From the NCBI RefSeq assembly GCF_019331775.1, contig NZ_JAHBBD010000001.1:1-64000 (forward strand): 64,000 bases of DNA, read 5' to 3'. This document shows, one piece after another, positions 14,227 to 21,706 of this stretch (positions within the stretch are counted from its first letter, which is position 1; every line of letters begins with the position of its first letter). This stretch comes from Bifidobacterium phasiani (GTDB lineage Bacteria > Actinomycetota > Actinomycetes > Actinomycetales > Bifidobacteriaceae). The translations under genes were made by a program, and so were the position numbers. The notes under the pieces were generated by a model. The model was not told the origin of the DNA. It made no database searches and saw only the letters and a program-made list of their open reading frames with translations.

Positions 14227-16002
<1,776 letters not shown>

Positions 16003-16146
16003 TCATCGGTTCTTTCACGATGGCCGAGGCAAAGCGCTCCACGGTTCCATGATTCCGCCATGAGTCCGGCCGTCGGCGCCGGGTGCGCACGCAAATGTTC
16101 GGACCGCGAATCGGACAGAACGTCCTCTTTGCATGGGTCACGGGGT

Positions 16147-16342
16147 CCATCGTGATTAGCTGCAGCAGATATGAGGGTCTGCAGACATCTATCCGTATTA
16201 CGTGAGGCGCCTTTCCCGGAAGACCCCGAGTATGGATGGCGGTATTCCGCCGTTCATACTCGGGGCATGACGCTTTGGATGCCTCACGTAGTGAATTTGG
16301 ATGTCCGCAAAACCTCAAATCCACTACACCTAAGCCATATGG
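16147..16342. repeat. Near-palindromic ~190-bp intergenic element, copy A
   Basis: A long imperfect palindrome centred on GGCGGTATTCCGCC (16238-16251). The arms carry, in order outward, CCGAGTATG/CATACTCGG, ACGTGAGGC/GCCTCACGT, a CTGCAGACATC/GATGTCCGC segment, and near the right end CCTAAGCCATAT. A second copy with the same centre and arm order is at 61501-61690. The copy lies between pyrG and the DUF2142 gene. If transcribed it would fold into one long hairpin. It has no protein-coding potential that I believe. It may be a miniature inverted-repeat mobile element or a structured RNA. Confidence 0.8.
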
Positions 16343-16379
16343 GTTCCCATTCGTCCCAATGCCGACGGTTCAAACGGAT

Positions 16380-17813
16380 TCAATGCGTCTCCACCGCCGC
16401 TGCGGGCACCGCCACGCTCTGGATCGTCGAGCGCAGTCCGGCGACGCATTCGGCGGCGCAAAGCGTCAGCAACGGCACCAAGGGGAAGAAATACCGGTGC
16501 TGCATGCCGTCGACCACGTCCGCGCCGATCGGGGTGTACTGCAACCACAATGCCAGATACGTCAGCAGTATGATGCCCACGGCCACACACCACGCGCACC
16601 ACCAGAACACCAGCATGCGCCCCGGCATGGCCCGACGAACCGTGGCAATCGCCAGCACGACCGCCACGGCGACCGTCATCATCCAGAATCCCATGATGGC
16701 GATGCTGTCCGGGACATTATCCAGATTGGCCTTGCCATGCGCGATCGCCGTGCCGATCGCGCCGAGGGCCTCGATCATGCCGTCTGCCCCGCCGAGCAGC
16801 GCCTGCTTCTTCGCGTTCATGTCGTCGTACGACACGATCATCGGGGTCGTGACGAACCACGAGGTCAGACGCATCCACACCGCCAGCCATATCAATGACG
16901 CCGCGACCCCAACCGCGCATATCCACAGCCGCGGCTCCTTCCACGGCGATCCCGACCGTGCGGCGGCAACGTCTCCCGCATCGGCCATTCTCCACTGCAT
17001 ATATGGCACGAACAGGATGAGCAACACCAATGGCGCGTAGATGAACTTGCACATGGCCATGCAGACGGACAAGGCCGACAGGGCGAGGCAATAGCGCACG
17101 GAGACACGGCGAAGCATCGCTCCGAACACCAGGCACGTCAGCAGGAACGCCGTCGCCTGGGTGAACGAATCCGCCGAGATCGCGAACGCATAGCGGCGAA
17201 TCAGCAGCGGACACAGCATGACCAGGCCGACGAGAATTCGCCATCGGGGCAACGCCGCCACCGCCAGCCCCATGAACGACGCATACACCGCCAACATGAG
17301 GCATTCCGCCAGATAGTAAGTGACCTGCGCCGGCAGGCCGAACGCCTTGCCCAAAGCGAACGCCGCCAGTTGCGGGAGGTAGGCGACCGGGGAGTTGGTG
17401 GCCGTGTTGTTGTACGGGACGTCGGCCCCGGTAGCGTCCTGCACCGTGATGGTGTCCTTCCGCACGACCGCGGGATCGTATCCGTCGTACTCCTGCACGG
17501 AGAAGTCGATCCAGGTCCAGTCGACGCGACCGCCGACGTTGCCGTCCGTACCGTGCAGCAGGCTTTTCGAATCCACGGGTCTGGCGAGCACATCGCCGTT
17601 CACGATGCCATCGACGCGATACACGTGGGCCCAGATATCCGGGATATGGCCGGGAGGCGTCGACACGATGCAGAGCATGCCGAACAGCACCGTGGCCGCG
17701 GCCACGATCGCCGGCATGAACCTGCGGACAACGCCGACGAACCGCCCTATCGACGCATCTGGACAGCCATTACCCCCCCCCCCACTCAATGTTTCAGCAT
17801 CACGCACACCCAT
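16380..17813 (-). CDS. DUF2142-type polytopic membrane protein with a poly-G tract
   Basis: A 477-residue membrane protein with about ten to eleven helices and a large extracytoplasmic loop after the first helix (roughly residues 55-130, containing HIPDIWAHVYRVDGI). That architecture, with a GT-C-like first loop, fits DUF2142, a family often found with cell-surface glycan genes. I place the start at MGVRDAETLS, preceded by AGGGGG, although alternative starts exist up to 17939. Directly after codon 10 comes a run of eleven G's, encoding four glycines. Gain of one G gives an immediate TAA; loss of one gives a TAG nine codons later. As sequenced the frame is open. The substrate and reaction are unknown. 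Confidence 0.7.
   Translation of the reverse strand: MGVRDAETLSGGGGNGCPDASIGRFVGVVRRFMPAIVAAATVLFGMLCIVSTPPGHIPDIWAHVYRVDGIVNGDVLARPVDSKSLLHGTDGNVGGRVDWTWIDFSVQEYDGYDPAVVRKDTITVQDATGADVPYNNTATNSPVAYLPQLAAFALGKAFGLPAQVTYYLAECLMLAVYASFMGLAVAALPRWRILVGLVMLCPLLIRRYAFAISADSFTQATAFLLTCLVFGAMLRRVSVRYCLALSALSVCMAMCKFIYAPLVLLILFVPYMQWRMADAGDVAAARSGSPWKEPRLWICAVGVAASLIWLAVWMRLTSWFVTTPMIVSYDDMNAKKQALLGGADGMIEALGAIGTAIAHGKANLDNVPDSIAIMGFWMMTVAVAVVLAIATVRRAMPGRMLVFWWCAWCVAVGIILLTYLALWLQYTPIGADVVDGMQHRYFFPLVPLLTLCAAECVAGLRSTIQSVAVPAAAVETH
17773..17783 (-). repeat. Homopolymeric G11 tract (C11 on the plus strand), phase-variation candidate
   Basis: Eleven consecutive C's on the plus strand lie about ten codons inside the DUF2142 gene. 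Such tracts slip during replication. Here 11 G's keep the frame open, 12 put TAA straight after the tract, and 10 put TAG nine codons downstream. Confidence 0.85.
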
Positions 17814-17979
17814 ACAACCCCCTGGCATCGTCGTGTCCATCGAAGACAGAAGACCGGACTCACCGGCCTCGTCAACAGCAACGATACCCCATATTGGGTG
17901 GAATGCATACCCCCATGCCGCAACGATGCCTCGCCGCATATGGGGGCATCACCGCTCCGCCGCATTCCCGCATACGAAA

Positions 17980-18001
17980 AGAGCCGGGTCACCCCGGCTC
18001 T
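17980..18001 (-). terminator. Terminator of the pullulanase gene
   Basis: A 9-bp GC-rich stem (AGAGCCGGG / CCCGGCTCT) with a short loop, followed on the minus strand by TTTTCG, lies 140 bases beyond the pullulanase stop. The rest of the 328-base gap (17814-18141) holds only short imperfect inverted repeats and the start region of the DUF2142 gene. Confidence 0.8.
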
Positions 18002-18141
18002 TCGGTTTCGGCGCGCCCGCCCCGACGGGCCGGCGGATGCCATGCGCGGACAACGGACCCGCGGCGTGGCATCATGCACCGCAAGGCCCGCCGTGCCCTG
18101 TCGGTCCGGCACACCGAAGCCGACGGGACACGGCGGTCATG

Positions 18142-21100
18142 TCACTGCCGGCGCCCGCCTCGGGAGCGACGGCGGACCGCCCAGGCCGCGCCGGCGACGG
18201 CGATCAGCAGCACGGCCGCGACCGCCGCGATGGCGATGGCGCTGCCCGTGGAGGCGATGGGCCTCGTAGGCTTGCCCTCGCCCGACGCCTCGGGCGTCGC
18301 GTCATCGGAACCGGAACCGGGGCCATGCTCGCCGTCCCCGTCGCCCGGCTGTCCGGGATCCGTGCCGGGCTGCTGCCCGTCGTCGGCGGGGCGGTACAGC
18401 ACCGTCGTCGACAGAGCCCCGGCCTCGTAGCCGTCGGCGGACACCGGCGTCGTCGCTGGAGCGTCGAGGTCGACCGTGCCGCCCTGGACGAGCGTCGCGT
18501 AGTCGCCGTCCTCGATGCCCTGCACGGTGGCCGGCTCCTCGTTGGCGTTGTGGATGACCACGTAGGTCCCGTCCTCGCCGGACGCCTGGTAGGCGACCAC
18601 GCCGTCGGCCGCCGCGATCGCCTTGGTGTTCGCGGCGATCTGCCCGTAGTCGGCCATGCGGAACGTCTCGCTGCCGGCGCGCAGGTCGATCAGCCCCTTG
18701 ACGTACGCGACGGAGTCCGCGTACTGCGTCGTGCGGTCCCAGTCGATGGCGTTCACCGCGTCGCCGGCGTTGTAGCTGTCGGCCACGCCGTTCTTGGTGC
18801 GCAGGAACTCCTGCCCGAGCTGGATGGCGGGGATGCCGTAGGACAGGTAGACGACGGAGTCGGCCAGTTCGGCGCGCGCCGCGGTGGTCGCGTCGTCATC
18901 GTCGGGCACGCTCGCCCTGAGCTTGTCGTACAGCGTCATGTTGTCGTGGATCTCGGCGTAGTGCACGATCTGGCCGGCGTCGCCGTAGCGCACGTCGGCG
19001 GTGCCGTTCGTGCACATCGCGTCCCCGGCCGTGCCCTCCGGGTTCTGGCAGGCGAGGATGTTGTTCAGGATCAGCCCCTCCTTGCCGGTCTTGCCGGAGA
19101 CGAAGCCGGTGTCGGCGGTGTCGAACACGCTGCCCTTCAGGGCGTCGCGGATCGAGTCGTTGAAGAACGCCACGCCGTTGTCGCCGTCCTTGGACGCCAG
19201 CTCGAAGGCGTTCGGCTGGGTGGTCATCTCGCTCTTGTCCATCGTCGTGTTCATGTCCCAGCCCTCGCCGAGCACGATGATCGACGGGTCGATCTCGTCC
19301 AGCGCGGCGCGGACCTCCTTCATGGTCTGCAGGTCGATCAGGCCCATGAGGTCGAAGCGAAAGCCGTCGACGTTGTAGTTCCTGGCCCAGTAGGTCACCG
19401 AGTCGACGATGTAGTTGCGCATCATCGCGCGCTCGGAGGCCGTGTCGTTGCCGCAGCCGGAGTTGTTGGTCAGGTTGCCGTTCCCGTCGTAGCGGAAGTA
19501 GTACCCCGGCACGACCAGGTTGAACGGGTGCGACGAGACGTCCTGCACGTGGTTGTACACCACGTCCATGATGACGCGGATGCCGTTGTCGTGCAGGCCC
19601 TCCACCATCTGCTTGAGCTCGGTCACGCGGGCCGACGGATTGTACGGGTCCGAGGAGTACGAGCCCTCCGGGACGTTGTAGTTCAGCGGGTCGTAGCCCC
19701 AGTTCTGCTGGCCGTGCTGCTCCTCGTCGTACGACAGGTCGCCGGTCTCGTCCACGCTGCCGTAGTCGTACATCGGCATGATCTGCACATGGGAGACGCC
19801 GAGGTCCTTGAGGTAGTCCAACCCGGACGTGGCACCGGCGTCGGTGGTGGTGCCCGGCTCGACCATGCCCAGGTACTTGCCCTTGTTCTCCTGCGAGATG
19901 CCGGAGTTCGGCGCGATCGAGAAGTCGCGGATGTTCGTCTCGGCGATCGTCGCGTCGGTGGCCTTGCCGAACGCCGGCATGCGCTCGCCCGTGCCCTCGG
20001 GGTTCATCTGCACGTCGGAGAGCACCACGGAGCGGCGGCCGTTGACCACCGCCGCCGTGGCGTACGGGTCGGCGGACCGGTTCGACGTGCCGTCCGCGAA
20101 CGTCACCGTGTAGTCGTAGGCCAGGTCGGCGCAGTCGCCATCCACGGTGACGCTGTACACGCCGCGCTCGCCGCGGGTCATCGGGTGGGTCGCGGCCAGC
20201 GGCGCGTCGGCGCTGCGGTCGGACTCGTAGGTGTTCAGCGTCACCGCGCTCGCCGTCGGCGCCCACAGCTTGAACGTCGTCGACTCCGCGCTCCAGGTGG
20301 CGCCCAGGTCGTCGCCGTCGTAGGCGTAGGCCTCGTCGAACTCGTCGGTGCGCACCACCGCGCCGGCGATGGCGACGGTCTCGCCCCAGTCGGGCGCGGA
20401 CACCGTGTATCCGGCGGCGGGGTCGAGGGCCTGCTCGGTGGTGATGACCAGCCTGCCGTCCTCGACGGCGACGCCGGCGACCGTGGCGCCGTCGACCGTC
20501 ACGTTGTCCGTGGTGAACGTCGTATCGTCGAACGAGCCCCTGAGCTTGACGGTGATCTCGTCGGTCGCGCTGATCTCGGCGCCGGTGAAGCTGTTGGTCA
20601 GCAGGATGACGGACTCGTTGGTATAGGTCGTCCATTCGCCGCTGCGCAGCCAGATCTCCGCCCTGCCCGAGCCGCTCGCCGCGTCGGTGATCTCGATGGC
20701 CGACTGCGGGATGACGCGGTCGCCCTCGCCCGGGTCCTTGGCCGCCCACTCGTTGCCGTCCACGCTCTGCCTGACGATGAACATCGGCCGTGTCATGCCT
20801 TCCACACTGTCCATCGTATACGTCGCCGTCATGCCGTAGTCGTCCGGGTCCGCGAACCCGGCGGTCCGCGCCTCGACGCCGTCCGCCCACGCGTACATGT
20901 TCCAGCCGGTGTAGTCGCCGTCGTCGCGCCGGTAGTGCACGGTCACGTCGAGATGGTTGACCTTCTTGAGGTACTCCTCCGGCACCGTCGTCTCGTCGTA
21001 GGTCTCGTCGGGCGCGGCCGCGTCGACCCAGACCTCCGCCGTGCCGTTCGAGGCGTCGACGAACCGGTCGCCGCCGACCTTGTTCCACTGCGGCGTGGTG

Positions 21101-21474
21101 ACGATCAGGCCGATCTTGTCGGCGTCGTAGGCTCCGGGGACCTCGATGTCGAGCACCTTGCCGAACGCGTCCTCGCCGGTGAACTCATGGAACGCCCCTT
21201 CGAGGGTGGCGCCGTCGCGGTCGGTGCCCCACACCCAGACGACGCGGCCGTCGTCGACGGCGGGGTCCTGGGGCCGGTAGTGCACGATGAGCCTGGTCGT
21301 CGGCTGCTGCTCGGCCGGCTCCGTCGCGTCAGAGACGACCGCCGACCGGGGCGTCGCCTGCGGGGTCTCGGCGTGGGCCGCCGGTTGCGCGGCGACCAGC
21401 GCGGTCACGCCCATCGCGATCGCGGCGGCCATCGCGACGAGCCTGCGCCGCCATGCATGCTGCTGCATGTCCAT
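18142..21474 (-). CDS. Secreted, cell-wall-anchored type I pullulanase (GH13_14)
   Basis: A 1110-residue enzyme that cleaves alpha-1,6 links in pullulan, starch and glycogen outside the cell. Order: signal peptide (1-33, RRR-x-hydrophobic-AHA); two tandem N-terminal starch-binding modules resembling CBM41 (about 45-150 and 155-265, both with HYR near the start and W-x-W or W-NMYAW); a linking domain; a CBM48-like domain (about 385-480); the GH13 barrel with QNWGYDP, MDVVYNHV, nucleophile Asp708 in GFRFDLMGL, acid/base Glu737 in LGEGWD and Asp844 in IHDN; a C-terminal beta domain; a Gly/Asp-rich linker; then an IASTG sorting-like motif (1073-1077), a membrane helix and an Arg-rich tail. The start has AGGAA eight bases upstream. 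Two LacI-type operators lie upstream, suggesting control by a maltose-type repressor. Confidence 0.93.
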   Translation of the reverse strand: MDMQQHAWRRRLVAMAAAIAMGVTALVAAQPAAHAETPQATPRSAVVSDATEPAEQQPTTRLIVHYRPQDPAVDDGRVVWVWGTDRDGATLEGAFHEFTGEDAFGKVLDIEVPGAYDADKIGLIVTTPQWNKVGGDRFVDASNGTAEVWVDAAAPDETYDETTVPEEYLKKVNHLDVTVHYRRDDGDYTGWNMYAWADGVEARTAGFADPDDYGMTATYTMDSVEGMTRPMFIVRQSVDGNEWAAKDPGEGDRVIPQSAIEITDAASGSGRAEIWLRSGEWTTYTNESVILLTNSFTGAEISATDEITVKLRGSFDDTTFTTDNVTVDGATVAGVAVEDGRLVITTEQALDPAAGYTVSAPDWGETVAIAGAVVRTDEFDEAYAYDGDDLGATWSAESTTFKLWAPTASAVTLNTYESDRSADAPLAATHPMTRGERGVYSVTVDGDCADLAYDYTVTFADGTSNRSADPYATAAVVNGRRSVVLSDVQMNPEGTGERMPAFGKATDATIAETNIRDFSIAPNSGISQENKGKYLGMVEPGTTTDAGATSGLDYLKDLGVSHVQIMPMYDYGSVDETGDLSYDEEQHGQQNWGYDPLNYNVPEGSYSSDPYNPSARVTELKQMVEGLHDNGIRVIMDVVYNHVQDVSSHPFNLVVPGYYFRYDGNGNLTNNSGCGNDTASERAMMRNYIVDSVTYWARNYNVDGFRFDLMGLIDLQTMKEVRAALDEIDPSIIVLGEGWDMNTTMDKSEMTTQPNAFELASKDGDNGVAFFNDSIRDALKGSVFDTADTGFVSGKTGKEGLILNNILACQNPEGTAGDAMCTNGTADVRYGDAGQIVHYAEIHDNMTLYDKLRASVPDDDDATTAARAELADSVVYLSYGIPAIQLGQEFLRTKNGVADSYNAGDAVNAIDWDRTTQYADSVAYVKGLIDLRAGSETFRMADYGQIAANTKAIAAADGVVAYQASGEDGTYVVIHNANEEPATVQGIEDGDYATLVQGGTVDLDAPATTPVSADGYEAGALSTTVLYRPADDGQQPGTDPGQPGDGDGEHGPGSGSDDATPEASGEGKPTRPIASTGSAIAIAAVAAVLLIAVAGAAWAVRRRSRGGRRQ

Positions 21475-21625
21475 AACTGTTGTTCCTGTTCTCTCCCAGA
21501 TGGGACGCGCGGCGCCGCTCCATCCCTTCCTGCCCGCCATCGGGCCGCGACGCCGTTGCCGTCCCGAACGCATGCGCGCCCGCCCGCTTCGGCGGAGCGA
21601 TCTGGAACCATCTGGACACTGCTTT

Positions 21626-21639
21626 TGCATACGTTCGCA
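21626..21639. promoter_or_regulatory. LacI-family operator-like site 1, pullulanase promoter
   Basis: TGCATACGTTCGCA is an imperfect inverted repeat with the TGC...CG...GCA layout of LacI/MalR operators, about 150 bases before the pullulanase start. Confidence 0.55.
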
Positions 21640-21706
21640 TTCCAAGATGGAACGAGCCTATCATTGCGTCAGTGCAAATACAATGAAACAAACGGGTTCG
21701 ATATAG

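Follow-up and report, generated by a model that had tools for sequence, protein, structure and literature searches.

A G11 tract near the start of a DUF2142 membrane protein gene of Bifidobacterium phasiani as a probable phase switch on a putative cell-surface glycosyltransferase

Slippage switching at G tracts is already known in the genus Bifidobacterium. The sortase-dependent pilus genes bbr_0113 and bbr_1889 of B. breve UCC2003 contain intragenic G tracts at which ON/OFF slippage was measured (Penno et al. 2022, PMC9187656). The lengths of these tracts vary, the ON length is enriched in mice, and the authors mention further G tracts beyond the scope of their study, some of which are intragenic (PMC9187656). 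For Gardnerella, the published report describes ~20 G/C tracts in each genome, 8 bases or longer, most of which coincide with a gene start or lie ahead of one; for one tract, sibling colonies had 9- and 10-base forms (PMC11287997). Poly-G/C tracts whose slips terminate the reading frame are also found in phase-variable, glycan-building glycosyltransferase genes of the Gram-negative genera Neisseria and Campylobacter. The products of the switched genes in these bacteria are typically cytoplasmic enzymes of lipooligosaccharide or capsule synthesis. DUF2142 proteins of lactococci and streptococci are proposed to be polysaccharide polymerases or GT-C transferases (PMC12599335, PMC9746298), and a model of PSP assembly is given in PMC10821137. 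No report of DUF2142 as a phase-variation target was found in the literature searched, and what is new at the locus described below is the type of target.

We analysed a stretch of 64,000 nucleotides of B. phasiani DNA (the window), in which a first-pass annotation had noted eleven G residues ten codons into a DUF2142 membrane protein gene; both the tract and its position were reconfirmed. The gene (16380..17813, minus strand) has 477 codons and, on the basis of its Pfam PF09913 match and fold comparison, is proposed to encode a GT-C-fold glycosyltransferase that is ON at 11 G. The tract, C11 on the plus strand and G11 on the coding minus strand, is the proposed slippage site (17773..17783). 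It directly follows the ten codons MGVRDAETLS, counted from the ATG at 17811..17813 (minus strand), and forms codons 11–14 (GGG GGG GGG GGT), so that a long homopolymer lies at the coding start, as in contingency loci. Recomputing the frames, we found the 477-aa frame open at 11 G, a length that may be off by one as assembled, and off at 9, 10, 12 and 13 G. At 12 (or 9) G, the tract runs straight into a TAA (17770..17772, minus strand); at 10 (or 13) G, eight further codons lead to a TAG (17747..17749, minus strand), the 10-G frame reading VMAVQMRR past the tract. The earlier description of these frames, with TAA next at 12 G and TAG soon after at 10 G, is thereby reproduced, as is the proposal that both single-base slips turn the gene off, because 10 and 12 G each truncate the DUF2142 protein. 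Stops in both alternative frames within nine codons were encountered at only 0.6% of codon positions in pyrG, the DUF2142 gene and the pullulanase gene, and in one alternative frame of the same three genes the median distance to a stop was 327 codons. Since so few positions are comparable, the double stop at the tract is no trivial property of GC-rich DNA.

The locus resembles the B. breve pilus genes in genus, in tract type and length (10–11 G), in placement a few codons after the start and in the ON/OFF consequence for the frame. It differs in that the B. breve target is a pilin and slippage there was measured, whereas here slippage is inferred and the product is not the pilin or LPXTG protein of a sortase-dependent pilus switch but a DUF2142 polytopic membrane protein with a GT-C-like fold. 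Gardnerella belongs to the same family and has a similar set of G/C tracts at or before gene starts; unlike the tract studied here, most of those tracts are upstream rather than intragenic, and the sections of PMC11287997 drawn on name no DUF2142 target. In common with the Neisseria and Campylobacter genes, the tract lies in a putative glycan-building gene and its slips terminate the frame, but the predicted product is a GT-C-like membrane protein of a commensal actinobacterium. The protein shares its Pfam family and ~10–14 transmembrane helices with the WpsI/WpsJ-like DUF2142 proteins of lactococci and streptococci (PMC12599335, PMC9746298, PMC10821137). Those genes lie in polysaccharide clusters and have no switch described in the parts consulted, whereas the B. 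phasiani gene stands alone beside pyrG.

The length of the tract exceeds the genomic background. The window contains three G/C runs of length 6, none of lengths 7–10 and one of 11. Pattern searches across the whole 2.71-Mb genome returned 195, 25 and 4 runs of exactly 6, 7 and 8 bases, followed by 5, 7, 7, 1, 0 and 1 runs of 9 to 14 bases, which constitutes a secondary peak at 9–11 bases. When the decay of lengths 6–8 is extrapolated, ~0.5 runs of at least 9 bases and ~0.01 of at least 11 bases are expected, as against 21 and 9 observed. The remark in the first-pass annotation that the tract is unusually long for GC-rich coding DNA thus holds, both within the window, where it is the sole run of 11, and against the genome-wide hump. 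A first-order Markov chain, which expects ~30 runs of at least 9 and ~2 of at least 11 bases, was set aside as misleading; it over-predicts lengths 6–8 by 6- to 20-fold (for example, 1242 runs of six versus 195 observed) and is therefore a poor null. Across 112 Bifidobacterium-group genomes, runs of at least 9 G/C number from 1 to 74 per genome, with G008 (74) and G089 (57) at the extreme.

By manual count, 12 of the 21 tracts of at least 9 bases in the B. phasiani genome lie within or shortly before a gene start. In five surface/pilin-like genes (C10:49513, C12:166939, C16:8261, C16:14540 and C1:100923, given as contig and position), a G10 or G11 tract occurs a few codons after an ATG with a Shine-Dalgarno sequence; the designation surface/pilin-like refers to weak MucBP or VWA matches in three of the five genes and, the other two having none, otherwise to signal-peptide-like starts. 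Four of these genes are in frame as assembled. The fifth, a surface-protein gene on the minus strand with its tract at C1:100923-100933 (L061:1024-1034), was read by eye to be out of frame at 11 G and open at 10, and consequently ON and OFF states are both present among the loci of this assembly. Further tracts precede a histidine phosphatase gene and lie between genes for a family-2 glycosyltransferase and an ABC ATPase; among the remainder, three occur in tandem ORFs, a CRISPR spacer contains one, and several lack a clear context.

Other tracts lie outside coding frames. G10–G11 tracts occur 45–160 bp before solute-binding protein genes (L063:1489-1499, L080:1502-1511 and L076:1478-1487), a placement from which they might switch nutrient uptake, through transcription or through the leader. 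A gene whose product has a bacterial sugar transferase domain of the exopolysaccharide priming type is preceded, at a distance of ~30 bp, by a G/C11 tract (G000:C52:6408-6418; L079:1509-1519), an arrangement that suggests promoter-type switching of a polysaccharide cluster.

The closest named orthologues of the DUF2142 protein are those of B. boum (64%), B. simiarum (55%) and B. merycicum (52%). The B. merycicum orthologue has a G8 run six codons after its ATG, which is preceded by a strong Shine-Dalgarno sequence (GGAGAAGGAG); there, 7 or 10 G would truncate the product at ~15 residues and 9 G at 71. The G156 sequence is identical to that of B. merycicum, and both were counted once. No run of at least 8 was present in the other orthologue loci retrieved by protein search, including that of B. 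boum (64% identity), where a pairwise DNA alignment places a G-rich stretch opposite the tract. In B. simiarum, a G10 run lies ~160 bp upstream of the region of homology and is separated from the gene by an in-frame TAA; it was rejected as an intragenic switch. As the run is found in B. merycicum and not in others such as B. boum, a tract at this position is not conserved across the genus. Among the sequences compared it has thus come and gone during evolution, a common pattern in contingency loci.

We consider it probable (about 0.8) that the tract is a translational phase switch on a cell-surface glycosyltransferase. The first-pass annotation had proposed a phase-variation contingency locus, and the tract at the coding start, the truncating slips, the genome-wide tract set, the precedent in the genus and the B. 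merycicum orthologue all support that proposal. We infer slippage at the tract by analogy with the B. breve pili and Gardnerella, and likewise infer the enzyme activity and the surface phenotype. An unlikely alternative is that the tract is passive, a G-rich part of a variable N-terminal tail that drift has expanded and that is slightly unstable, with any switching having no selected role. The N-terminal tail of the DUF2142 protein is indeed poorly conserved, the homologous stretch in B. boum is G-rich without being a tract, and most orthologues have no tract. However, a passive stretch accounts poorly for a genome-wide set concentrated at the starts of surface, transport and glycan genes, for stops so near in both other frames (0.6% of positions) and for the reappearance of a tract at the corresponding position of the B. 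merycicum orthologue.

The phase-switch reading places the translation start upstream of the tract, as had been supposed, and the ATG at 17811..17813 has the best-placed ribosome site among the candidate starts there: the Shine-Dalgarno-like AGGGGG (17818..17823, minus strand) matches AGGAGG at 5/6 positions with a spacing of 4 nt. The other upstream candidates score at most 3/6, except a GTG at 17807, for which the same AGGGGG has a spacing of 10. We regard it as very unlikely that translation really begins at Met33 (in-frame ATG downstream of the tract, 17715..17717, minus strand), where the first membrane segment begins; the tract would then lie in a 5′ leader and at most tune expression. 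Met33-Pro34 is invariant in four aligned orthologues and an AGG lies close upstream; but a strong Shine-Dalgarno-ATG pair precedes the tract both here and in B. merycicum, orthologues that start elsewhere retain 12–30 residues ahead of this Met (e.g. MEMKGLTVIIRRLMP and MASHKSLLKVIRRFMP), and a start at Met33 would leave the first helix without its charged flank. Some product might still arise from the 12-G form by leaky initiation, either at Met33 or at a GTG overlapping the tract edge (17783..17785, minus strand); this GTG, a possible weak start without a Shine-Dalgarno sequence, comes into frame when the tract has 12 or 9 G.

On the same strand, the DUF2142 gene is flanked upstream by a pullulanase-type amylase gene (18142..21645, minus strand), with a terminator-like hairpin in the gap between the two (17986-18000, scored on the plus strand), and downstream by pyrG, encoding CTP synthase (14227..15906, minus strand). 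A promoter scan of 15800-18200 found no sigma-70-type site. That the tract chiefly modulates pyrG by polarity is hardly credible: the DUF2142-pyrG order is kept in B. boum and B. simiarum, but the two genes are 474 bp apart here, the sequence right before pyrG (TCATAT.CG.ATGATA..GTG.AATTCCATGGTTAGAAGA) is similar in another species, suggesting that pyrG has its own promoter, and pyrG is a central metabolic gene for which a constant need is expected.

The target of the proposed phase switch was assigned from profile and fold comparisons. Residues 43–449 match Pfam DUF2142 (PF09913) with an E value of 9.8e-23 and 81 bits, against a gathering threshold of 30.1, over positions 2–395 of the 395-position profile. 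No NCBIfam model matched the protein, and a sequence search of solved structures returned none. An AlphaFold2 model built on four sequences was poor (mean pLDDT 51). With this model, STT3 oligosaccharyltransferase ranked first to third in Foldseek, although the best E value was 0.12 and none fell below 0.001. GT-C glycosyltransferases, or complexes containing one, filled all of the first 35 rows in VIA-align. The top row, AftB, aligned over 288 residues with an rmsd of 4.5 and Z 13.3, a score that helical models such as this one (pLDDT 51) may reach through a common arrangement; STT3/OST, PMT, ALG12, ArnT, PglB, DPY19, Emb, AftD, AftA and PimE followed, and unrelated folds appeared from Z 6.4 down. 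In four orthologues, an invariant HIPDIWAH motif lies directly after the first helix. It contains Asp59, a candidate for the catalytic acid that GT-C enzymes have in that place, in the first outer loop. The DUF2142 protein is most likely a GT-C-fold membrane glycosyltransferase, as far as a model of this confidence can indicate, and its likely role is to add lipid-linked sugar units to a glycan of the cell surface. The earlier suggestion of a surface glycan target gains support from the same fold match, subject to the low confidence of the predicted structure.

In the mechanism that we propose, slipped-strand mispairing would infrequently lead DNA polymerase to add a G to the 11-G run or to leave one out. 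The 11-G form (and also 8 or 14 G) would yield the full-length DUF2142 protein, while at other lengths translation would end within about nine codons of the tract. Working on the outer face of the membrane, the enzyme would draw on a lipid-linked sugar or oligosaccharide for assembling or decorating a glycan of the cell wall or capsule, and a clone would be a mixture of cells with and without the modification. G-tract switching in bifidobacteria would then reach beyond pili to include a probable surface-glycan enzyme, and DUF2142, a poorly known family, would gain a genetically trackable phenotype. If this is true, clonal cultures of such commensals would consist of cells with differing sugar coats, with consequences for adhesion, immune recognition and phage sensitivity, and comparisons of single colonies would be confounded. 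In a wider scenario, to which we assign a low probability, poly-G contingency would operate as a programme across the genome: the GT-C glycan enzyme that it switches would act as, or shape, a phage receptor, and phage-related genes would be switched likewise, as the tracts of the tail-like ORFs and the CRISPR spacer described below could suggest, placing slippage on both sides of the phage-host contest.

Two minor observations concern tracts elsewhere in the genome. Tandem paralogous ORFs of ~165–195 aa, with starts like MxRVNxFPNP, occupy G000:C1:211408-214709 (L062:909-4210, minus strand) and carry G9, G11 and G9 tracts near their 3′ ends, where slippage would alter the C-terminus or the junction with the next ORF. 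They are possibly prophage tail genes; neither PHROGs nor Pfam gave a match. A CRISPR array with a 36-bp repeat (GTTGCAAGGCTTAGCGCCTTGCACCTTCGTTGAGGA) and at least ~29 units includes a spacer at G000:C6:74138-74211 (L064:1439-1512) that reads ATGCCCCGCGAGCTC-G12-CTTA. A viral-contig scan with this spacer produced no match. Within the genome itself, the spacer matches the end of one of the resident ORFs, ATGCCCCGCGGGCTC-G9-CTTA (L062:3655-3626, minus strand), with one mismatch and a different G length; on this sequence similarity, it probably targets a relative of the resident tail-like ORF with a variable G tract.
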